A stretch of DNA of 36,587 nt, from assembly GCA_025353965.1 (NCBI GenBank), contig JANXNS010000185.1:1-36587 (forward strand), read 5' to 3'. Source of the stretch: Aquihabitans sp. GTDB lineage: Bacteria > Actinomycetota > Acidimicrobiia > Acidimicrobiales > Iamiaceae. Under the pieces are notes generated by a model. It was given only the letters and a program-made list of their open reading frames with translations, did not search any database and was not told the origin of the DNA. Numbering within the stretch: the stretch's first letter is position 1; each line of letters opens with the position of its first letter. Positions 5,859 through 36,587 of this stretch are shown piece after piece. The translations under genes and the position numbers were made by a program.

Positions 5859-7532
5859 ATGATCGGGCCGGGCTGGTTCGATCGTGAAGATGCCCTGAGG
5901 CGCCTTGCGGACGACCCGTTCGACGTGTTGGTGGTGGGCGCCGGGATCACCGGGGCAGGGGTCGCTCTCGACGCCGCATCGCGTGGCCTACGCACGGCGC
6001 TCGTCGAACGGGACGACTTTGCTTCCGGTACCTCCTCCAAATCTTCGAAGCTGGCCCACGGCGGGTTGCGCTACCTCCAGCAGGGCGAGATTCGCTTGGT
6101 CTACCAAGCCCTGCATGAGCGTCAGCGCCTACGCCACAACGCACCTCACCTCGTGAAGATGCTCCCGTTCCTGTTGCCTGTGCTCACCGGCCGCGGCAGC
6201 GTCATTCCCAAGAAGCTCTCCCGGGCCTTGGGCATCAGCATGTGGATGTACGACCTCACCGGTGGTGCCCGGATCGGCAAACTCCACGAGCGCATCAGCG
6301 CGGAGAAGACGCTGGAACATATGCCCACGCTGCCAGCGGAGAAGCTGGCCGCGTCGTACCTCTACTACGACGCCACCGTGGACGATGCCCGGCTCACCCT
6401 CACGGTGGCGCGTACGGCCGCCATCGAGTTCGGCGCTGTTGTCGCCAACGGCGCGTCCCTGGTTGGCATCGACAAAGACGACCAGGGTCAGGTGTGTGGG
6501 GCTCGAGTTCTGGCCGACGGCAAGGAGATCATTATTCGCTGTCGATCCGTGGTCAATGCCGCTGGCGTGTGGTCAGACTCCGTGCGCACCATCGACGAGG
6601 GCACGGACCCAGATTCCATTCGCCCGGCCAAGGGCGTCCATATCACGGTGCCTTGGAGCAAAATCCGCAACGACGTTGCGGTGGTGGTGCCGGTACCCAA
6701 GGACAAGCGGGCCGTGTTCGTGGTGCCGTGGGGCGATCTCACCTACATCGGCACGACCGATACCGACTACGACGGTCCGCTCGATGATCCCCAGGTCACC
6801 GAGGAAGATGTGCAGTACCTGCTGGACGCCCTGTCGTTCACGGGTATTACCCGTGAGGACGTGGTCGGCACATGGGCCGGATTGCGGCCCTTGGTCAAGA
6901 GCGGTGGGACCGCCAAGACCGCGGATCTCTCCCGCCGCCACAAGGTGAACCCCTCCCCCAGCGGCGTCGTCACCATCACCGGCGGCAAGCTCACCACCTA
7001 CCGCGAGATGGCGGCGGACACGGTCGACGCCATCGTCGAGCACCTGGGCAAGACGGCCGATGGCGTATCTCGCCGCTCCCAAACCAAGAAGCTCAAGCTG
7101 CGCGGCGCGGAGGGCTACGAAACCCTGGCGGGCGACGCAGATCCGATGATCGCCCACCTGGCAGACCGCTACGGCGGGGAGGCCGCCACCGTGCTGGCGC
7201 TGGCCGACGCCGATCCCACGTTGCGCGAGCCGCTCGTGGCGGGACTGCCGTACATCCGAGCCGAAGCCGTCTACGCCGTGCGCTACGAGATGGCCCGCTC
7301 CGTGGACGACATTCTCAGCCGCCGCACACGGGCGCGTCTGCTGGCCCGAGATGCCTCCGCCGCCGCCGCGCAGAGCGTGGCCATGCTCATCGCTCCCTTA
7401 CTGGGCCTCACCAACGAGGAAGCGGCCCAGCAAGCGGCCGACTACCGGGCGGCCGCTGAGCTGGAGCGCACCAGCGCCAACCTTCCGCTCTCCGCCCTGC
7501 CCGACGCCGCGCTCGAGGGCCTCCAAGGCTAG
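5859..7532 (+). CDS. glpD: aerobic glycerol-3-phosphate dehydrogenase
   Basis: A 557-residue FAD-dependent dehydrogenase that oxidises sn-glycerol 3-phosphate to dihydroxyacetone phosphate and feeds electrons to quinone at the membrane. The Rossmann motif VVGAGITGAGVALDAASRG begins near residue 25. The GlpD hallmark SSKLAHGGLRYLQ follows near 63-75, then DATVDDARLTL and a later TITGGKLTTYREMA segment that closes the FAD domain, and a C-terminal helical domain ends the protein (RYEMARSVDDILSRRTRARLLARD). The ATG at 5859 starts at the usual distance from the FAD motif; the track's GTG at 5805 would add 18 unconserved residues. It is the first gene of a glycerol-lipid-like set, 47 bp ahead of an AGPS-like flavoprotein. 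Confidence 0.93.
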   Translation: MIGPGWFDREDALRRLADDPFDVLVVGAGITGAGVALDAASRGLRTALVERDDFASGTSSKSSKLAHGGLRYLQQGEIRLVYQALHERQRLRHNAPHLVKMLPFLLPVLTGRGSVIPKKLSRALGISMWMYDLTGGARIGKLHERISAEKTLEHMPTLPAEKLAASYLYYDATVDDARLTLTVARTAAIEFGAVVANGASLVGIDKDDQGQVCGARVLADGKEIIIRCRSVVNAAGVWSDSVRTIDEGTDPDSIRPAKGVHITVPWSKIRNDVAVVVPVPKDKRAVFVVPWGDLTYIGTTDTDYDGPLDDPQVTEEDVQYLLDALSFTGITREDVVGTWAGLRPLVKSGGTAKTADLSRRHKVNPSPSGVVTITGGKLTTYREMAADTVDAIVEHLGKTADGVSRRSQTKKLKLRGAEGYETLAGDADPMIAHLADRYGGEAATVLALADADPTLREPLVAGLPYIRAEAVYAVRYEMARSVDDILSRRTRARLLARDASAAAAQSVAMLIAPLLGLTNEEAAQQAADYRAAAELERTSANLPLSALPDAALEGLQG

Positions 7533-24110: not shown

Positions 24111-24959
24111 GTGCAGAAATTTTCTGGCAAGGTTGCCGTGATCACCGGAGCGGGCAGCGGCATTGGGTTGGCCATTGCCTCCGCCCTTTCGGCTGAAGGC
24201 ATGCGGGTGTGTCTTGCCGACGTGGACGACGTGGCGCTGGCGCAAGCCAAGGCAACGCTGGTGGCCAGTGGTACACCACCGGCCGACGTCATCACCCGGC
24301 AAACCGATGTGCGCGTGGAGGCAGACGTCGACGGCCTGGCCGATCGGATCTTCACCCAGTGGGGCCAGGTGGACGTGTTGGTGAATAACGCGGGCGTCTT
24401 CGTCGGTGGCCTGCTCTGGGAACGGCCCGCCGCCGATCTCGAGTTTGTGCTGGGTGTCAACGTTTGGGGGATCCTCCATGGGATCCGCGCCTTCGTACCC
24501 CGCATGATCGCCCAGGGCGGGGAAGGCCACATCGTCAACACCTGCTCGGTTGCCGGCCATCTCGGCTCGCCATTTTCCGGCCCGTACGGCATCTCCAAGT
24601 TCGCCGCTCTGGCGGCAACCGAAAGCCTCGCCTTAGACCTGGCGGCGACCGGTTCCACCCTCAAAGTGACCGCGCTCTGCCCCGGCATGGTGGACACCAA
24701 TCTGGCCAACGGGTCCGTGGCCGCCCGGCCCGATGCACTGGCCACCGATGCCACCGAAGACCGCACCTTCGCCCACGAGATGCTCACCCAATTCCTGACC
24801 GAAGGCATCGCTCCCGCCGTGGTCGCCAACCTGGTGGTGAGCGCCATCCGGGCCGAAGAATTTCTCGTGCTCACCCACGAGCACCACCGGGCCCTCATCA
24901 CCAACCGGGCCGAAGAACTCATCAACGGAGCACTCCCCACCCCGGCAGATTTCCGCTGA
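24111..24959 (+). CDS. short-chain dehydrogenase/reductase (SDR)
   Basis: A 282-residue classical SDR: TGAGSGIG (12-19) binds NAD(P), NNAG is at 92-95, the catalytic Ser is in TCSVAG (~146) and Tyr/Lys are in YGISK (159/163). The Asp at the end of the second strand (CLADVDD) favours NAD+ over NADP+. It probably interconverts an alcohol and a ketone. The start is a GTG with GAGGAG eight bases upstream. The divergent Baeyer-Villiger monooxygenase gene begins 58 bp away, so both are likely controlled from the same short region. It converges on the alpha-L-fucosidase gene with an 18-bp gap. Confidence 0.92.
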   Translation: MQKFSGKVAVITGAGSGIGLAIASALSAEGMRVCLADVDDVALAQAKATLVASGTPPADVITRQTDVRVEADVDGLADRIFTQWGQVDVLVNNAGVFVGGLLWERPAADLEFVLGVNVWGILHGIRAFVPRMIAQGGEGHIVNTCSVAGHLGSPFSGPYGISKFAALAATESLALDLAATGSTLKVTALCPGMVDTNLANGSVAARPDALATDATEDRTFAHEMLTQFLTEGIAPAVVANLVVSAIRAEEFLVLTHEHHRALITNRAEELINGALPTPADFR

Positions 24960-28496: not shown

Positions 28497-30059
28497 TCAG
28501 ATGCGGGCCGACCGACCTTCCCAATGGGGATCGCGGAGCAGGCGCTTCGTGAGTTTTCCGGCCTCGTTGCGAGGCAACGATTCGTGAACCTCAAACCCGC
28601 GGGGGCATTTGTAGCCGGCCAGCCGCTCGCGACACAGGGCAACCAGTTCGGCCTCTAGGGCGTCGGACCACACGAACCCGTCTCGCAGCGCAACGGCCGC
28701 CCGAACCTGCTCGCCCATCTCCTCGTGAGGAATACCGAACACGGCGACATCGGCCACGGCGCGATGCTCCACGAGCACGCTCTCGGTCTCGGCGGGGTAG
28801 ATGTTCACGCCGCCCGACACGATCATGTCCACCCGTCGGTCAGACAGGTAGAGGTACCCGGCATCGTCGAAGTAACCGATGTCCCCGAGCGTGCCAAGGC
28901 CCGCTTCAAGGTGCGCAGAGGCCGTCTTCTCTGGCGCCTTGTGGTATTCGAAATCGCTCCCCATGAGATTGCGGAAGTACAAGTCTCCTGCCTGCCCGGG
29001 GCCGAGAAGTGCCCCGTCCGGGCCAACGACGGAGATCTCGACGATCGGCAATGGCTTGCCCACACTGCCCGGCCGTTCCTGCCATTCCGCGGCAGTGATG
29101 AGGGCCAGAAAGCCACCCTCGGTACCGCCGTAGTACTCGGTGACAATGGGCCCCCACCAGGAAATACATCCGCGTTTGACATTCAGTGGGCAGGGCGCAG
29201 CACCATGGATCACGGTCCGCAGAGTCGCCCCGGAGAACGCCGATCGCCGCTCGTCGGGAAGATCCAGCAGCCGACGCATTTGGGTGGGCACCAGGTGCAT
29301 GTTGGTCACGCCGTGGCGATCCACCAGGGTGAGCAGTCCATCGGCATCGAAACGATGCTGCAGCACAACCGAAGCACCACAGGCCAATGCGAACAGGGCA
29401 AACACCCATTGGGCGGAGTGGTAGAGCGGGCCGCAGACCCCCTGCACCCCTCCCCCCTCGGCGGGAAGGTCCACGATGGGCCGGAAGGAGTGCGCCATGA
29501 GGGTGAAGATCTCGGGCGTTCCCCCCACCTTGGACAGGCTGGAGCGGACACCCTTGGGCCGGCCCGTCGTGCCCGATGTGTAGAACATCGGCCCACCGCG
29601 CTCCGGGTCCACCGGCACCTCGGCTGACGCCGTAGCCAAGGCCGATTCATAGGACTCGAACCCGGGGTCGGTTCCGTCCACCAAGAGGCGGCAACGGGGT
29701 TCGATGTTGGTCGCCGCCAGGGCAGCTGTCACCACATCGAGCCAGCGGCCGTCGGCAATCACCGCCCGGGCGTCGCTGTCATCGAGGACATAGGCCAGTT
29801 CGTCGGCCACCCAATGCCAGTTCACGGGGACCAACACCCAACCGCCTTGGATGCAGGCCAATGAAACCTCTATGAGCTCAGCCTGGTTTCCGAGCATGGC
29901 CACGACCGTCTCGCCGCTGGCCAGGCCCCGATCACGTAGCGCGTGAATCAAGCGGTCCACCCGCTCGTCCAGCTGGGCCCACGTGGTCACGCCACCGGCG
30001 TCGATCACCGCCGGTACCTCTGGGCGCGCCGCCACCGTCGCAGCCAGGAGCGCACCCAC
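28497..30059 (-). CDS. acyl-CoA synthetase / AMP-binding ligase
   Basis: A 520-residue adenylate-forming enzyme that activates a carboxylic acid with ATP and joins it to CoA. The P-loop FYTSGTTGRPKGV is at 159-171, a YYGGTEGG core lies near 310, and the C-terminal motif LYLSDRRVDMIVSGGVNIYPAE and a final lysine motif (EAGKLTKRLL) are both present, so it should be active. The substrate may be a fatty or aromatic acid. Its GTG start shares a base with the TAG stop of the carotenoid-oxygenase gene (TAGTG), so the two are translationally coupled; a plausible flow is oxidative cleavage, then oxidation of the aldehyde, then CoA activation (inferred). Confidence 0.92.
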   Translation of the reverse strand: MGALLAATVAARPEVPAVIDAGGVTTWAQLDERVDRLIHALRDRGLASGETVVAMLGNQAELIEVSLACIQGGWVLVPVNWHWVADELAYVLDDSDARAVIADGRWLDVVTAALAATNIEPRCRLLVDGTDPGFESYESALATASAEVPVDPERGGPMFYTSGTTGRPKGVRSSLSKVGGTPEIFTLMAHSFRPIVDLPAEGGGVQGVCGPLYHSAQWVFALFALACGASVVLQHRFDADGLLTLVDRHGVTNMHLVPTQMRRLLDLPDERRSAFSGATLRTVIHGAAPCPLNVKRGCISWWGPIVTEYYGGTEGGFLALITAAEWQERPGSVGKPLPIVEISVVGPDGALLGPGQAGDLYFRNLMGSDFEYHKAPEKTASAHLEAGLGTLGDIGYFDDAGYLYLSDRRVDMIVSGGVNIYPAETESVLVEHRAVADVAVFGIPHEEMGEQVRAAVALRDGFVWSDALEAELVALCRERLAGYKCPRGFEVHESLPRNEAGKLTKRLLRDPHWEGRSARI

Positions 30060-31504
30060 TAGGGGGCGTCAGGCAGGAAGCTGCCGTGGAATCCGAACGG
30101 CACCCGTCGCGGCGCGTGGACCCGGGCGACTTCGGTGAGCGTCTCCGCGTCCAGCACCACCATGGCGCTTTCGTTGGTGGACCGCTCGGTGACCCAGTTC
30201 AGGATCCACCCGGCATCCTCGGTGGGGTTACTCGGATCGGGCGTGAAGACGGGCTCGCCGGAGACCGAGTCCGGGCCGTACCCGACCGAGATGGAAGTCC
30301 CGGCGTGCAGGTCGTGCTTGACCACACCATCGAACTCGGCTTCATCTTCGGACCACTGTCGGGTCCGGCCCAAGTAGCCGTACCGGGCGTCGAGGCCGGC
30401 GCGCCGGTCGTCCATCCGCGGGAAGTCCGCAGGGCGGTCGTCGAGTTGCTCGGTCGTGAACGTTCCGGCCCGGGCGTCGATGCGCCAGCGGTGCAAGGAC
30501 GGCTCCACCGGCTCAGACAGCGCCTCCTCCCCAAACGACGTGTTGAGCCGGGAGGCACGACACCCGGTGACGATCACGGCATCATCGTCGCCGCGAACAT
30601 CGTGTGCGTTGAGGAAGTGAAAAACCCAGAACGGGTCCACCTCGATCCAGCGGATCGTGTCTCCCGGAGCACCACGGTCCAGCACGCCGACCCTGGCGCC
30701 GTTTTCGGGCATCCACCGGATACCTTCGCCGCCCTTGAGCATGGACTCGAGGTCGAACAGTGCGGGCAAATCGAAGATCACGACCTTGGTCGCCGTGACC
30801 ACGAAGTCGTGCATCATGACCGGGTTCGGAAGCTCGACCGGGGTGGTCCAGGTGAGGGTGCCGTCGACAGAAGCCGTGTGGACCCGCAGGTGTGGGGGGA
30901 ACGGCGAATACCCGAAGAAGGTCATCTCACCGGTAGCCGGATCAATCTTGGGGTGCGCCGTCATCCCTCCCTGGAGGGCGCCGGCGAAATCGAACTCTCC
31001 GAGGGTCTCGAGTTCCCGGCTCATTTCCATTGGCTTGGCCGCTTCCATGAGCGCCAAGATCCGGCCGGCGTGGCTCACCACATGGGTGTTGGCGGTGTTC
31101 TTCATGCCGCCGACCTTCTCCATCACTTCCGCCGGAGGGAGGCGGAAGTCCGACAGACCGCCGAACAAGGCTTCCCCCGCGTCGGCCTCCGCCTGGAATC
31201 CGGCTGAGCGAATCCAGCGGTTGCGGTACTTCGCCCCGCCTTGGCCGTCGAGTTCCAACCCGTGAAGCATGCCGTCGCCGTCAAAGATGTGATAGCGCCC
31301 AAGGGGAGCAAACGCGGGGTTCGGCCCGTTGCGTAAAAAGGTGCCGCGCAGGCCAGCGGGAAGGTTGCCGGTGACGCGCAGGTCGGCCACGTCGAGCTCA
31401 TCGGTGACCGGGGCGTACAGGCCCGCCAGCCAAGGATTGGTGCTGCCGGGGGCCACCAGTGCTTCGGCGGCGTGATCGGTCCGGGGATCGCTGTCGATCG
31501 TCAT
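30059..31504 (-). CDS. carotenoid-cleavage-type oxygenase (RPE65/CCD family)
   Basis: A 481-residue non-heme iron(II) dioxygenase of the beta-propeller family that splits carbon-carbon double bonds in carotenoids, apocarotenoids or stilbenes. The four iron-binding histidines are recognisable: H184 (MTAHPKID), H232 (MMHDFVVT), H296 (FWVFHFLNAHD) and H473 (FGFHGSFLPDA). The N-terminal GTFLRNGPNP and YHIFDGDGMLHG motifs are also typical. Which double-bond substrate is used cannot be told from sequence; the CoA ligase coupled downstream and the ABC importer nearby favour catabolism of an imported compound over pigment processing. ATG at 31504. The promoter overlaps a palindrome shared with the TetR gene side. 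Confidence 0.93.
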   Translation of the reverse strand: MTIDSDPRTDHAAEALVAPGSTNPWLAGLYAPVTDELDVADLRVTGNLPAGLRGTFLRNGPNPAFAPLGRYHIFDGDGMLHGLELDGQGGAKYRNRWIRSAGFQAEADAGEALFGGLSDFRLPPAEVMEKVGGMKNTANTHVVSHAGRILALMEAAKPMEMSRELETLGEFDFAGALQGGMTAHPKIDPATGEMTFFGYSPFPPHLRVHTASVDGTLTWTTPVELPNPVMMHDFVVTATKVVIFDLPALFDLESMLKGGEGIRWMPENGARVGVLDRGAPGDTIRWIEVDPFWVFHFLNAHDVRGDDDAVIVTGCRASRLNTSFGEEALSEPVEPSLHRWRIDARAGTFTTEQLDDRPADFPRMDDRRAGLDARYGYLGRTRQWSEDEAEFDGVVKHDLHAGTSISVGYGPDSVSGEPVFTPDPSNPTEDAGWILNWVTERSTNESAMVVLDAETLTEVARVHAPRRVPFGFHGSFLPDAP

Positions 31505-31534: not shown

Positions 31535-31549
31535 GTGAACGCTGTTCAC
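31535..31549. promoter_or_regulatory. palindromic operator GTGAAC-GCT-GTTCAC (likely TetR site)
   Basis: A perfect inverted repeat with 6-base arms around GCT lies in the 94-bp gap between the divergent oxygenase and TetR genes. Its AACGCTGTTCACT core matches 11 of 13 bases of AACACTGTTCAGT in front of the ABC importer. TetR regulators usually bind such sites next to their own gene, so autoregulation and control of the oxygenase operon are likely (inferred). Confidence 0.6.
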
Positions 31550-31598
31550 TCTGGCGATTGGACAAGGTGCGCAAACCCGGCCCGGTAGCCTCATTGCT

Positions 31599-32228
31599 AT
31601 GACTGCGTTGCCCTCCACATCGGAGACGATCCCTGAACCACAGGACCGGCCACTCCTGCAACGCGAAACAATTGTGGCCGCGGCGCGCGAGCTCGTGTCC
31701 ACCAAGGGGCTCGAGGCACTCTCGTTACGCCGGCTGGCAGCCACCCTGGGGGTGACTGCCCCCGCGCTCTATGCCCACGTGACCGACAAGAACGATCTTC
31801 TTCGAGCCATCGCCGAGGTGGAATTCGACGAGCTCGTCTCCCGGTTCGAGGCCGTCCATGTAGATGATCCAGTGGCCCTCATTCGGGCCCACGGAAGGGC
31901 CTACCTGGATTACGCCCGGGAGAACCCGGCCCTTTTCCACGTCATGTTCTTGTTCCCACCGGACCTCGGCAACGGGGCTGCCGAGCGGACGGGCATTGAA
32001 TTGCCCGCCGCCACCCGGGTTTTCACCATGGCCGCACAGGCCGTTACCGATGCCATCGACTCCGGCGCCCTCGTGTCCGACAACCCCCTACTCGCCGTGT
32101 TGGCCATTTGGGCCAGCGTGCACGGGGTGGCCCAGGTCTTACTCCTCGGCTTTGCCCTGACCCGTGAGTCCGAGGACGCACTGATGACCGAAGTGACGGA
32201 TCGGCTCCTCGCCGGGTACCAGCCCTGA
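31599..32228 (+). CDS. TetR-family transcriptional regulator
   Basis: A 209-residue repressor with an N-terminal helix-turn-helix at about 22-68 (RETIVAAARELVSTKGLEALSLRRLAATLGV, then TAPALYAHVTDKNDLL) and an all-helical ligand domain with the WHG-like signature AIWASVHGVAQVLLLG of the TetR_C_13 group. The ATG at 31599 is the natural start. It lies between the oxygenase-ligase operon (divergent) and the ABC importer (downstream, same strand, 87-bp gap), and related sites precede both. The ligand is probably the substrate of that pathway or its CoA ester; this is not readable from sequence. Confidence 0.93.
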   Translation: MTALPSTSETIPEPQDRPLLQRETIVAAARELVSTKGLEALSLRRLAATLGVTAPALYAHVTDKNDLLRAIAEVEFDELVSRFEAVHVDDPVALIRAHGRAYLDYARENPALFHVMFLFPPDLGNGAAERTGIELPAATRVFTMAAQAVTDAIDSGALVSDNPLLAVLAIWASVHGVAQVLLLGFALTRESEDALMTEVTDRLLAGYQP

Positions 32229-32258
32229 CCGGGATGCTGGCACGCTTCGGTTCCATCG

Positions 32259-32264
32259 TATAAA
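32259..32264 (+). promoter_or_regulatory. candidate -10 box (TATAAA) of the ABC importer operon
   Basis: TATAAA directly precedes the palindrome at 32265-32276, so a repressor bound there would cover the transcription start. No convincing -35 is visible (CTGGCA is the nearest at 16 bases). The importer ATG is 51 bases downstream. Confidence 0.35.
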
Positions 32265-32276
32265 CACTGTTCAGTG
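32265..32276. promoter_or_regulatory. palindromic operator CACTG-TT-CAGTG before the ABC importer
   Basis: A perfect inverted repeat with 5-base arms, 40 bases before the binding-protein start. The longer string AACACTGTTCAGT shares 11 of 13 positions with AACGCTGTTCACT in the oxygenase/TetR promoter, pointing to the same regulator. The centres of symmetry of the two sites differ slightly, which lowers the certainty. Confidence 0.5.
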
Positions 32277-32315: not shown

Positions 32316-33626
32316 ATGAAACGCACCGCGCTGGCCATCACTTTTGTCACCCTCGCGCTCCTAGCCACGTCATGTAGCGAGGCGGCACCCAAGGGCACCG
32401 ACGCGAAGAGCCCCGGCACAACGATCCCCAGCACTTCGTGCGAGGGCCCCAAGCTCCTCGCCTGTGCCCGGGCGTCCATGCTCGGCAATCTCGTGCCAGC
32501 CAAGGCCACCAAGGCCACCGGCACCCCGATCACCCTTGGCATGATCAACCAGGAGAACACGCCCGCCGGGTCGTTTCCCGAGCTGAGCCAAGCAGTCCAA
32601 GCTGCGGTGACCTTTGTAAACGATGAACTCGGCGGGGTCGACGGCCACCCCATCAAGGTCGAGGTGTGCAACACCAAGTTCTCCACCGAAGGCTCCACCG
32701 CCTGCGGCCAAAAGTTCGTCGACGAGAATGTGCCGGCCGTCCTCGGCGGCATCGATGTCTTCGGCAACGCCAATGACGTTCTCGACCAAAATGACATTCC
32801 CTTCATTGGGGGCATCCCCGTCAGCACCCAGTCGGTCACCTCACCGAACTCGTTCCAGTGGAGCGGCGGTACCTGGGGGGCAACGGTTGCCTTTGCGGAC
32901 TACGCCATCCACACGCTGAAGGCCAAGAACGTCGCCATCGTTTACAGCGAGTTCGGCTCCATCACCGACAGCGCCAGATACGGCGAGCGGGTGCTCAAGG
33001 ACAGTGGTATCCAGGTCGAACTGGTGCCGTTCCCCATCATGTCGCCAGACATCAGCACCCCGCTCCAAGCGGCGGCCGCCAACAAGCCCGATGCCATCAT
33101 GGTGTTGGCCGCCGACACAAGTTGCAAGGCCGCCTTCGACGCCTTGGACGCCCAGCAAATCACCGCGACTCCCTTCTTCACGGGGGCATGCGCACCGCCC
33201 ACAATCATCGACCCGCTGCCGGAGGCCAAGACCAACGGCACCATCTTCAACGTCGAGGGGCCCATTGCCCGCGACAACCCGGGGCCAGATCCGACTCTCT
33301 ACAACGCCGTGATCAATCAGTACGGCAAGGGCTTGAACCCGGTTGGCGCCGGCACCGTCTCGTTCCGCAGTTTCATGAACCTGTACGCCGTGATGCGTCA
33401 CATAGGGGCCGACAAGCTCAGCCCGGCAAACCTCATCAAGGCCCTTCGGGCCACCGTGGACGAACCCAGCTTCATGGGCCACCCTTATACATGCGATGGC
33501 AAGCAATTCAAGGGGCTCCCGGGCATCTGCTCCCCTCAACAAGTGTTGGCCCGTATGGAACACAAGCAGTTGAGCCAGGTGGGCGGCTGGATCGACGTAG
33601 GTGCCATTTACGCCGCAACGTTCTGA
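32316..33626 (+). CDS. ABC transporter substrate-binding lipoprotein (LivK/HAAT type)
   Basis: A 436-residue lipoprotein with the signal MKRTALAITFVTLALLATSC; the cysteine at ~20 is the lipidation site. The mature part is a type I periplasmic-binding fold (GTPITLGMINQENTPAGSFPELSQA, then VCNTKFSTEGSTACGQKFVDENVPAVLGG, IVYSEFGSITDSARYGERVLKDSG). Relatives bind branched-chain amino acids, amides, urea, or aromatic and other acids, so the ligand must be read from context; the oxygenase/ligase operon suggests a hydrophobic or aromatic compound. The ATG at 32316 with AGGGG in front is preferred over the track's 32274. It is the first gene of a complete importer operon. Confidence 0.9.
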   Translation: MKRTALAITFVTLALLATSCSEAAPKGTDAKSPGTTIPSTSCEGPKLLACARASMLGNLVPAKATKATGTPITLGMINQENTPAGSFPELSQAVQAAVTFVNDELGGVDGHPIKVEVCNTKFSTEGSTACGQKFVDENVPAVLGGIDVFGNANDVLDQNDIPFIGGIPVSTQSVTSPNSFQWSGGTWGATVAFADYAIHTLKAKNVAIVYSEFGSITDSARYGERVLKDSGIQVELVPFPIMSPDISTPLQAAAANKPDAIMVLAADTSCKAAFDALDAQQITATPFFTGACAPPTIIDPLPEAKTNGTIFNVEGPIARDNPGPDPTLYNAVINQYGKGLNPVGAGTVSFRSFMNLYAVMRHIGADKLSPANLIKALRATVDEPSFMGHPYTCDGKQFKGLPGICSPQQVLARMEHKQLSQVGGWIDVGAIYAATF

Positions 33627-33656: not shown

Positions 33657-35621
33657 TTGTTGGCTGGCCTTGGCAGCGGTGCGGTGGTTGCCTCACTGGC
33701 GCTTGGCCTCGTGCTCGGGCATCGAGCCAACGGTGTCATCAACTTTGCCCACGCCGCCATGGGCATGTATCTGGCCTACGCCTACTTTGAGTTTCGGGAG
33801 ACGGGCGACCTGGTCCTGCCCGTCATTGGATTGCCGTCGCGGATACACCTGCTCGCCCGCCCCACCCTGGGGAGCGCGCTCCTGGTGACGGTGCTCCTGG
33901 GCCTCGCCCTGGGTGTCGCCGTTTACTGGCTCGTGTTCCGGCCGCTGCGCGAAGCACCGCCCTTGGCCCGAGTCGTTGCATCGCTGGGTCTGCTCCTCTA
34001 CACACAAGAAATGGCGCGGCTGCGCTTCCCGACCTCGGGGGCGGGTGTAGTGGTGCGCCGGGCGATTCTCCCGGACGGCCCGGTACATCTTCTCGGGTCC
34101 ACGGTTAGCGCCAACCGCCTACTCCTCACCGCCATGGTGATCGTGGCCACGATCGTCCTCACCGTGGTCTTCCGGCTCACCCGATTCGGACTAGCCACCA
34201 GGGCTGCGGCCGGCAACGAAAAGGGGGCCCTCCTCATCGGCATCGCCCCCGACCAACTCGGTTCGATCTGCTGGGCCATTGCCGCAGCGCTAGCCGGAGC
34301 CGCGGTCATCTTCATCGAACCGATTTCTGGCCTTGACCCCGCCATCACAACCTTGCTGGTAGTTCCAGCGCTCGCCGCCGCGCTCATTGGCAGCCTGGAG
34401 TCGTTCGCCATCACCTCGGCCGCCGGGATCGGCATCGGGATGGTCCAGTCGCTCATTCTCGGCTGGGCGGTGCGCCCGTCCACCACGTGGATTCCGCACT
34501 GGCTGCCCACCACCGGAATTCAGGCCGCAGTGCCCGTCGTGCTCATCATTTTGGTGCTGGTCCTTCGCGGTGATGCGCTACCAGATCGGTCGGCCATTGC
34601 GCCCCGATCGCTCCCCGCCTCACCGACCCCCCGGCACGTAGTGGCCTGGACCCTGCTCTTGTCTGGGTTGGCTGGCGGCGGCCTGTTGGTCTTCAGCGCG
34701 TCGTATCGGCAGGCGCTGGTGGTCACCATGATTTTTGCGTTGCTTGCCCTGTCGGTGGTGGTAGTCACCGGCTACAGCGGCCAGATTTCCTTGGCCCAGA
34801 TGGCATTCGCCGGGGTGGCCGGCTTTGCTGCGATCCGCCTTTCTGAGCACGGCGTCGCCTTCTTACCGGCGCTTGTCATGGCGGCCCTGGTATCCACGGC
34901 TCTCGGTCTGCTCATTGGCTATCCGGCCACGCGGGTGCGCGGCATGACGTTGGCGGTGGCCACTCTCGCCATGGCCGTGGCCATCGAGGGCTTGATCCTG
35001 GCCAGCGAACCCTTCTCGGGCGGTGCCGCCGGGTCGAGCGCCCCGCGACCATCGCTGTTCGGGATCGACATTGGCTTCAATGCGCGGGGCGCCGACAACT
35101 TCCGACCGGCGTTTGGTTTCGTCGTGATCGTGGTGCTGGCTCTTGCCGCGTGCGCAGTGGCGAACTTGCGTCGGAACCGAACCGGGTTGCGCTGGCTTGC
35201 GGTTCGTGCCAATGAGCGGGCGGCTGCGGCGGCAGGGATCGACGTGACCCGATCCAAGCTGGGCGCCTTCGCCACCTCGTCATTCCTCGCCGGTCTGAGC
35301 GGCGGGCTCACCGCGTTTGCCACCACTACCTTGTCGCCCACGTCGTTCGCGGTCATCGGTGCCCTGGTAGCGCTATCGCTCACCTACCTGGCCGGTGTCT
35401 CGAGCATCTCCGGGGCATTTCTGGCCGGCGGATTGGCGCAGGCCGGCATCATCACCACCGCCATGAATACCCAGACCGATGGGTGGGCAGGTCGCTATGC
35501 CTTTGCCATCAGCGGGTTGGCGTTGATCATCACGGCGATCCTTGCGCCTCAAGGCTTGACCGGGCTCTGGCGCAACCGTCTGGCAACCATGACGGCCCAC
35601 ACCGCAAAGGCACCATCGTGA
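33657..35621 (+). CDS. fused LivH-LivM ABC permease
   Basis: A 654-residue protein that joins the two permease subunits normally encoded separately. The LivH half has ANGVINFAHAAMGMY near 24-38; the LivM half begins after a linker at ~310-325 and has VVVTGYSGQISLAQMAFAG near 368 and a C-terminal SGAFLAGGLAQAG. About 16-18 membrane segments are expected. The start is unclear: no ATG or GTG exists near, and TTG 33657 is used here, while the frame stays open back to the binding-protein TGA (CTG at 33630 would give LLISTSIGFL). It lies 30 bases after that stop and in the same frame, so coupled initiation is likely. The end overlaps LivG by GTGA. Confidence 0.9.
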   Translation: MLAGLGSGAVVASLALGLVLGHRANGVINFAHAAMGMYLAYAYFEFRETGDLVLPVIGLPSRIHLLARPTLGSALLVTVLLGLALGVAVYWLVFRPLREAPPLARVVASLGLLLYTQEMARLRFPTSGAGVVVRRAILPDGPVHLLGSTVSANRLLLTAMVIVATIVLTVVFRLTRFGLATRAAAGNEKGALLIGIAPDQLGSICWAIAAALAGAAVIFIEPISGLDPAITTLLVVPALAAALIGSLESFAITSAAGIGIGMVQSLILGWAVRPSTTWIPHWLPTTGIQAAVPVVLIILVLVLRGDALPDRSAIAPRSLPASPTPRHVVAWTLLLSGLAGGGLLVFSASYRQALVVTMIFALLALSVVVVTGYSGQISLAQMAFAGVAGFAAIRLSEHGVAFLPALVMAALVSTALGLLIGYPATRVRGMTLAVATLAMAVAIEGLILASEPFSGGAAGSSAPRPSLFGIDIGFNARGADNFRPAFGFVVIVVLALAACAVANLRRNRTGLRWLAVRANERAAAAAGIDVTRSKLGAFATSSFLAGLSGGLTAFATTTLSPTSFAVIGALVALSLTYLAGVSSISGAFLAGGLAQAGIITTAMNTQTDGWAGRYAFAISGLALIITAILAPQGLTGLWRNRLATMTAHTAKAPS

Positions 35622-36376
35622 CCGGCGAGCCGATTCTGGATGTCCGAGATCTGACCGTGAGTCACGGTGGGCTCATAGCAGTCGACGACTTGTCGTTTCA
35701 AGTGGGGCCGCGCCAAATCGTTGGCCTTATCGGCCCGAATGGTGCCGGTAAGACCACGTGCATCGACACCCTCACCGGGTTCACTGCCCTCAAGCGAGGG
35801 CGCATCTTGTTCTTGGGTCAACCCATCGACGGGCTTCCTGCGCACGCTCGAGCTCGAATCGGGTTGGTCCGGACCTTCCAATCGCTCGAGCTCTTCGATG
35901 ACCTAAGCGTTCGAGAGAACCTGCTGGTCTCGGCCAGTACCCCCACCTGGCGATCAACCCTCACCGATATGTTCCGAGCCAAGCCCGCGGTCGACCGACA
36001 GGTCGACGCCGTACTGGCTCAACTCGACCTCACGGGGCTGGCCGACCGGTCACCATCGTCGTTGTCCAACGGCCAGCGCCACCTCGTTGCCCTGGCCCGA
36101 GCGTTGGTCGCCCGCCCCAAACTACTCCTCCTCGACGAACCAGCGGCCGGCCTTGATCCGGCCGAGACCAACGAGCTCAAGGACCTCCTCCGAACCCTGC
36201 CGGAGGCGGGAACCAGCCTGCTTCTGGTGGACCATGACATGTCCTTGGTCCTCGGCGTGTGCGACCTGATTCACGTCATCGACTTCGGGCGCCTCATCGC
36301 CAGTGGCCCCCCAGCGGAGATCCGCACCAACCCGGCGGTCATCGCCGCCTATCTCGGCCAGGAGCACCAGCCATGA
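35618..36376 (+). CDS. livG: ABC transporter ATP-binding protein LivG
   Basis: A 252-residue ATPase subunit of the importer. Walker A GPNGAGKTT is near 38-46, the Q-loop FQSLELFDDLSVRENLL follows, the signature is LSNGQR (~149) with N where G or Y is usual, Walker B is LLLLDEPAAGLDP (~168-180) and the switch His is in LLVDHDMSLV. It carries the LivG-type insert between the Q-loop and signature (TPTWRSTLTDMFRAKPAVDRQ). The GTG start overlaps the permease stop (GTGA), and its own TGA overlaps the ATG of LivF (ATGA), so the importer genes form one tightly coupled operon. Confidence 0.93.
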   Translation: MTGEPILDVRDLTVSHGGLIAVDDLSFQVGPRQIVGLIGPNGAGKTTCIDTLTGFTALKRGRILFLGQPIDGLPAHARARIGLVRTFQSLELFDDLSVRENLLVSASTPTWRSTLTDMFRAKPAVDRQVDAVLAQLDLTGLADRSPSSLSNGQRHLVALARALVARPKLLLLDEPAAGLDPAETNELKDLLRTLPEAGTSLLLVDHDMSLVLGVCDLIHVIDFGRLIASGPPAEIRTNPAVIAAYLGQEHQP

Positions 36377-36587
36377 CTGGCCCCGACTCGTCACCGGCGT
36401 TGGTGGTCCGTGACCTCGAGGCCGGCTACGACCGGGTCCAGGTGCTGTACGGCGTCGAGCTCACGGTTGGCGCAGGTGAGGTCGTTGCCCTGCTCGGCGC
36501 CAACGGTGCGGGAAAGACCACCACCCTGCTCACGATCAGTGGGATCGTTCCCCGCCAGGCCGGAACCGTTGAGGTGCTGGGCGAGAC
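36373..36587 (+). CDS. livF: ABC transporter ATP-binding protein LivF, N-terminal part
   Basis: The first 71 residues of the second importer ATPase, cut by the window edge. LVVRDLEAGYDRVQVLYGVELTVGAGEVVALLGANGAGKTT shows the LivF-type start (GYD.VQVLYGV) and Walker A. The ATG at 36373 overlaps the LivG stop. With it the importer has all expected parts (binding protein, two permease halves, two ATPases). Confidence 0.92.
   Translation, partial: MTGPDSSPALVVRDLEAGYDRVQVLYGVELTVGAGEVVALLGANGAGKTTTLLTISGIVPRQAGTVEVLGE

Follow-up and report, generated by a model that had tools for sequence, protein, structure and literature searches.

The window analysed here, a stretch of 36,587 nucleotides from Aquihabitans sp. 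(contig JANXNS010000185.1), contains a gene for a TetR-family regulator flanked on one side by a divergent carotenoid oxygenase/CoA-ligase operon and on the other by genes of a Liv-type importer. An earlier note on this DNA had pointed to a 13-nucleotide likeness between the two promoter regions and proposed that a single TetR protein represses both the uptake of a substrate and the enzymes that cleave and activate it. The locus raises three questions: whether the shared motif is real, whether this TetR acts on it and which compound the genes serve.

A palindrome shared by two promoter regions

The proposed repressor (31599-32228, + strand) consists of TetR_N and TetR_C_33 domains. The helix-turn-helix of TetR_N scores over the Pfam gathering score (43.9 bits vs 24) and TetR_C_33 is also above its Pfam cut-off; no NCBIfam equivalog cut-off was reached for this protein, the best model giving 48 of 265 bits. 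Divergent from it lies the gene for CCO1 (30059-31504, - strand), a member of the RPE65/carotenoid oxygenase family (PF03055, 424 bits), in which the four Fe-ligand histidines (H184, H232, H296 and H473) are invariant in the orthologue alignment. The gene for a FadD-like acyl-CoA ligase (28497-30059, - strand) overlaps the CCO1 stop by one base, and we therefore treat the two as one operon; a CoA ligase orthologue also adjoins CCO1 in genomes G009, G004, G006 and G005.

Downstream of the regulator, all on the + strand, follow genes for a lipoprotein-type solute-binding protein (Peripla_BP_6, Liv/HAAT type; 32316-33626), a fused LivH-LivM-type permease of 650 residues (BPD_transp_2; 33657-35621, with the start at either 33657 or 33684), a LivG-type ATPase with a BCA_ABC_TP_C tail (35618-36376) and a LivF-type ATPase, of which only the beginning (36373-36585, from translation) precedes the window end. 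The presence of Peripla_BP_6, BPD_transp_2 and LivG/LivF in one operon, with LivF only begun, identifies a Liv-type (HAAT) importer.

The likeness between the two promoter regions was confirmed, as AACGCTGTTCACT (31538-31550) and AACACTGTTCAGT (32263-32275) are equal at 11 of 13 positions. The register, taken from relatives, defines the conserved unit as a 15-bp palindrome, STDAACRNYGTTHAS, with two 6-bp arms and a 3-bp spacer (6-3-6). Operator 1, GTGAACGCTGTTCAC (31535-31549), is a perfect 6-3-6 palindrome in the divergent CCO1/TetR gap, with 38 bp to the CCO1 start and 57 bp to the TetR start. Operator 2, ATAAACACTGTTCAG (32260-32274), is centred 49 bp upstream of the importer start codon. 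The sequence CACTGTTCAGTG is found ahead of the importer (32265-32276), but the 5-2-5 palindrome CACTG-TT-CAGTG that had been noted at this site is out of register: since relatives conserve the 15-mer with a 3-bp spacer, the site reads ATAAAC-ACT-GTTCAG. A TATAAA box had also been described before the importer. The hexamer is present, but it overlaps the left arm of operator 2, and a sigma-70-type scan at this site returned no promoter, leaving the promoter role of the box unsupported.

Distribution of the palindrome

Taken alone, the window provides modest evidence for the motif, only marginally over chance: with up to two mismatches it holds four matches where 1.2 are expected, a count also seen in 5% of shuffled sequences. 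The comparative data described below lift the shared motif far above a chance match.

TetR orthologues in congeners are 61-64% identical to the protein of the window. Three congeners with such orthologues keep CCO1 divergent from TetR, and in two of the three the importer is on the same contig, 4-5 kb off, with other genes in between. Operator 1 is kept in the CCO1/TetR gap of G009, G004 and G006, and operator 2 is kept ahead of the binding-protein gene in G009, G006, G014 and G004. The importer of G004 stands on a separate contig (C168) and has two site copies. In alignments of both gaps the operator is the conserved block, the rest of the intergenic DNA having diverged. The earlier note had made its proposal depend on conservation among relatives; the alignments bear it out, with the motif kept at both positions even though the gene order differs. 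The CCO1 gene of G009 (L012 9867-11305) is split over two reading frames, owing to a frameshift or to an error in sequencing.

Random occurrence throughout the genome, which would have spoken against the proposal, was not seen either. In the 3.18 Mb genome of the window the palindrome matches exactly once, at operator 1. Allowing one mismatch yields 13 places, compared with 8 when the pattern is reversed as a control. The top five by score are operators 1 and 2, C209:3031, C127:7388 and C127:2673; the remaining eight, equal in number to the control, score <18 bits. The C209:3031 site is located 56 bp upstream of a second oxygenase gene, CCO2 (L114), and the C127:7388 site 40 bp upstream of a Rieske oxygenase gene, which is followed by CCO3 (L113). 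The last of the five (L113 2673-2687) stands ahead of a gene for a secreted-looking protein of 508 residues (L113 2801-4327) that has no match in Pfam; its position makes it a candidate further member of the regulon. Two other PF03055 matches in this genome (C143 and C49) are without a site.

At the level of the order (43 genomes), the exact pattern matches 57 places, compared with 2 for the reversed pattern. Our own tally puts 39 of these places at the promoters of CCO, importer, CoA-ligase or TetR genes and 4 more at a secreted hydrolase gene; the other 14 adjoin no recognised regulon gene. Column counts over the collected sites are partly circular, because most sites were chosen with the pattern itself, and the binomial statistic on site placement, which uses a rough background, is indicative only. 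A matrix was also built from seven congener sites and then run on more distant TetR loci. At a threshold of 14 bits, chance alone would give ~0.13 hits in 19 kb; the matrix detected strong out-of-sample sites (19.8 to >24 bits) in L015-L020, L052, L063, L064 and L066, mostly from other genera or families. When the matrix was symmetrised, nearly all such sites were no more than ~100 bp away from the start of a CCO or binding-protein gene. Two genomes of other families (G027 and G279) have the genes spread over many contigs with an operator of its own at each; the genes that bear one code for the CoA ligase, the importer, a hydrolase and CCOs from several clades. On L206, an actinobacterial contig of metagenomic origin, TetR, CoA ligase, CCO2 and permease genes occur together with two sites.

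Several individual sites deserve mention. An operator variant, GTTAACGACGTTAAC, occurs in G027. Another variant, CCTAACACTGTTAGG, is found between CCO2 and a Rieske gene on an Acidimicrobiales contig (L208, ~5950-5975); its flanks are changed and the AAC-N3-GTT core is retained. An entry titled Bifidobacterium breve (L197) contains a TetR/CCO1/CCO3 cluster with operators typical of Acidimicrobiales, and its taxonomic label looks wrong.

In the CCO tree, the site is present in clades 1-4 and missing from most of the other CCO clades of the same genomes; scattered additional site-bearing CCOs fall outside the four clades. Genomes without sites still possess other CCOs, so the motif is not a general feature of CCO promoters. 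The regulon as first outlined was partial: a Rieske oxygenase and two or more additional CCOs belong to it as well, as does a secreted hydrolase in relatives.

The CCO3 and CCO4 proteins (L012 4873-6573, L017 6371-8053, L113 4392-5990) are ~530-580 residues long and ~30% identical to each other. They keep the four iron histidines and have Asp and Ser/Pro at the positions of the CCO1 outer-shell residues Glu154 and Glu417. The secreted alpha/beta hydrolase is preceded by an operator in G004, G006, G009 and G027 (L117 7252-8190, L120 1768-2694, L116 8116-8892 and L287). Its similarity to chlorophyllase and other hydrolase families is weak and stays below the cut-offs, and in these relatives its presence suggests an extracellular ester as a substrate; a search for its homologue in the window's genome found none.

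Substrate of the putative regulon

Among solved structures, the closest to CCO1 are plant carotenoid 9,10-dioxygenase (241-244 bits) and NCED (215 bits), ahead of lignostilbene dioxygenases (LSD, 156 bits). Its top NCBIfam model is the 8'-apo-carotenoid 13,14-cleaving dioxygenase (NF052295; 332 vs 225 bits). As the score reaches 331.5 of the 675 bits of the equivalog cut-off, CCO1 belongs to the same superfamily and is not an NF052295 equivalog. Our best guess from these similarities is that the substrate would be an apocarotenoid or a similar polyene.

A different substrate, a lignin-derived stilbene of the lignostilbene or resveratrol type, should be weighed against it. The CCO would then produce aromatic aldehydes, the Rieske oxygenase would act as a demethylase and the importer would take up aromatic acids. 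Such a pathway would be in keeping with the scores of the CCO paralogues against lignostilbene dioxygenase models, with a Rieske oxygenase within the regulon and with the many aromatic-acid binders among the proteins that the binding protein resembles. The carotenoid-type scores of CCO1, including the sub-cut-off match to the apo-carotenoid model, speak against it, and so do the active-site residues. In stilbene cleavers (LSD/NOV), Tyr101 and Lys134 (LSD numbering) hold the phenolic hydroxyl of stilbenes. CCO1 has Leu and Met there, and CCO2-4 have Trp or Tyr instead of the Lys. Because CCO1 is without both stilbene-binding residues, an apocarotenoid is favoured over a lignostilbene, and we regard a stilbene substrate as unlikely.

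The importer does not discriminate between the apocarotenoid and stilbene readings. The AlphaFold model of its binding protein (pLDDT 75.6, from 8 sequences) matches LivK and p-coumarate binders in fold. Since amino-acid, aromatic-acid and fatty-acid binders match alike, at 12-18% identity, the fold is uninformative on the substrate. A phmmer search with the binding protein against PDB gave no hit.

The TetR protein as candidate regulator and comparison with known systems

The question of whether this TetR acts on the sites was approached through their co-occurrence. In the window, G009, G004, G006, G021 and L206 a site is present in the promoter region of the TetR gene itself. Among 30 loci with TetR homologues, all 15 that have a site also hold a CCO, and none of the 15 site-less loci holds one. 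In three genomes of the site-less loci, sites stand elsewhere at CCO genes, and TetR may therefore act in trans. Site-bearing loci cluster on the TetR tree (3 changes vs 10.3 shuffled). Within the window's family (24 genomes, TetR presence called at E<=1e-20), all 9 genomes that have TetR also have operators at CCO or importer genes, compared with 1 of the 15 that lack it (Fisher P = 7.6e-6, phylogeny ignored). The window's TetR is the sole close relative of its kind in its genome, and a scan of genome contigs with TetR alone as the query found nothing.

These associations have to be set against the idea that some other regulator, encoded in trans, controls CCO genes through the palindrome, with TetR controlling something else or being a mere target. 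In favour of this idea, some of the CCO genes with a site are remote from any TetR gene. The single exception in the family, G001, has sites at CCO genes but gave no match to TetR at E<=1e-20. This MAG is 88% complete, and its contig ends inside the CoA ligase gene, the place at which a relative with a similar arrangement (L019) has its TetR gene. In addition, TetR homologues without a nearby site have a nearly identical recognition helix (VTAPALYAHV), so the helix alone fails to explain specificity, and a search for palindromes upstream of these TetRs gave nothing convincing. Against this stand the sites in TetR's own promoter region, the tracking of operators by TetR presence and the clustering on the TetR tree, in view of which we judge another regulator improbable.

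That the 13-mers match by chance, or represent an SOS (LexA) box or a generic half-site, has next to no probability: the in-window count is close to chance and actinobacterial SOS boxes likewise contain GAAC...GTTC, but conservation of both positions in relatives and genome-wide specificity for these promoters rule out a chance match, the spacer is 3 bp instead of the 4 bp of the actinobacterial LexA box (GAAC-N4-GTTC), and the targets are CCO and importer genes, not SOS genes.

At the sequence level, the motif is established together with its conservation, its placement and the families of the genes behind it. Building on this, we consider it highly probable that the two sites are operators of one TetR-family repressor, which most likely is autoregulated, is released by a ligand and governs polyene uptake and cleavage. 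The original one-TetR proposal thus holds as regards a shared-operator regulon, which turns out to be larger; binding and repression by TetR are what we infer, as is a substrate common to importer and oxygenase. According to the proposed mechanism, a TetR dimer would bind STDAACRNYGTTHAS in the CCO1/TetR gap, thereby regulating its own gene and repressing the CCO1-CoA ligase operon, and would also bind ahead of the importer operon. Copies on other contigs would bring CCO2, and the Rieske oxygenase followed by CCO3, under the same control. Once the pathway compound enters, the compound or its cleavage product would bind the TetR C-terminal domain and free the operators, so that the importer, cleavage oxygenases and CoA ligase would be induced jointly. 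Import would be followed by oxidative cleavage of the conjugated C=C chain, with aldehydes or ketones as products, by their oxidation to acids, by CoA activation and by beta-oxidation.

The arrangement resembles that of autoregulated TetR repressors with divergent targets (TetR type, or catabolic ones such as RutR), which likewise have a short palindrome in their own divergent gap and several operons with a common operator. Here, the operator sequence and the target set match no regulon described in the literature searched, and an open-access search found no paper describing the present TetR/CCO/importer regulon. A TetR-controlled catabolic regulon is already a familiar type of system; the pathway behind the present one is possibly new.

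Its components also have known counterparts. CCO1 shares PF03055, the four iron histidines and its best NCBIfam model with the apocarotenoid oxygenases of bacteria, among them MtCCO (Rv0654), which are the subject of a review (PMC5133782); a term search of that review showed no regulon setting with an importer and a CoA ligase. Sphingomonad lignostilbene dioxygenase pathways (PMC12997858) similarly have several CCO-family paralogues per genome that serve catabolism. They differ in that the Tyr/Lys signature is absent from CCO1 and that the present regulon includes an importer, whereas for such uncharged dimers that review reports no implication of transporters. The importer has the Peripla_BP_6, BPD_transp_2 and LivG-type ATPase components of Liv/HAAT importers of branched-chain amino acids and aromatic acids. 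Here, LivH and LivM are fused, the operon is predicted to be co-controlled with carotenoid oxygenases, and no NCBIfam equivalog cut-off was reached.

Carotenoids are plentiful in surface waters and sediments, and to our knowledge their degraders and the uptake systems of these are poorly known. The palindrome before CCOs, CoA ligase and importer points to co-ordinated uptake and breakdown of a carotenoid-like compound. A broader reading, which we put forward only tentatively, is that many Acidimicrobiales, from Ilumatobacteraceae and other families, possess dedicated, jointly regulated import and consumption of (apo)carotenoids or similar polyenes. For this they would use a Liv-type importer of their own, a Rieske oxygenase and co-regulated CCOs from as many as four clades, CCO3/CCO4 being a divergent subfamily in which the four iron histidines remain and two of the customary outer-shell glutamates are absent. 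The analysis offers a concrete, testable set of elements, made up of the operator, the repressor, the importer, several oxygenases and the CoA ligase, for which relatives are named. With the operator as a bar code, more pathway genes can be traced in uncultured Actinobacteria, and the importer binding protein provides a direct route to the substrate.

The window further codes for a short-chain dehydrogenase (24111-24959), without an operator ahead of it, that is 64% identical to the one following a site-bearing CCO in G004 (L126 5562-6410). On account of this identity, it may belong to the same pathway.
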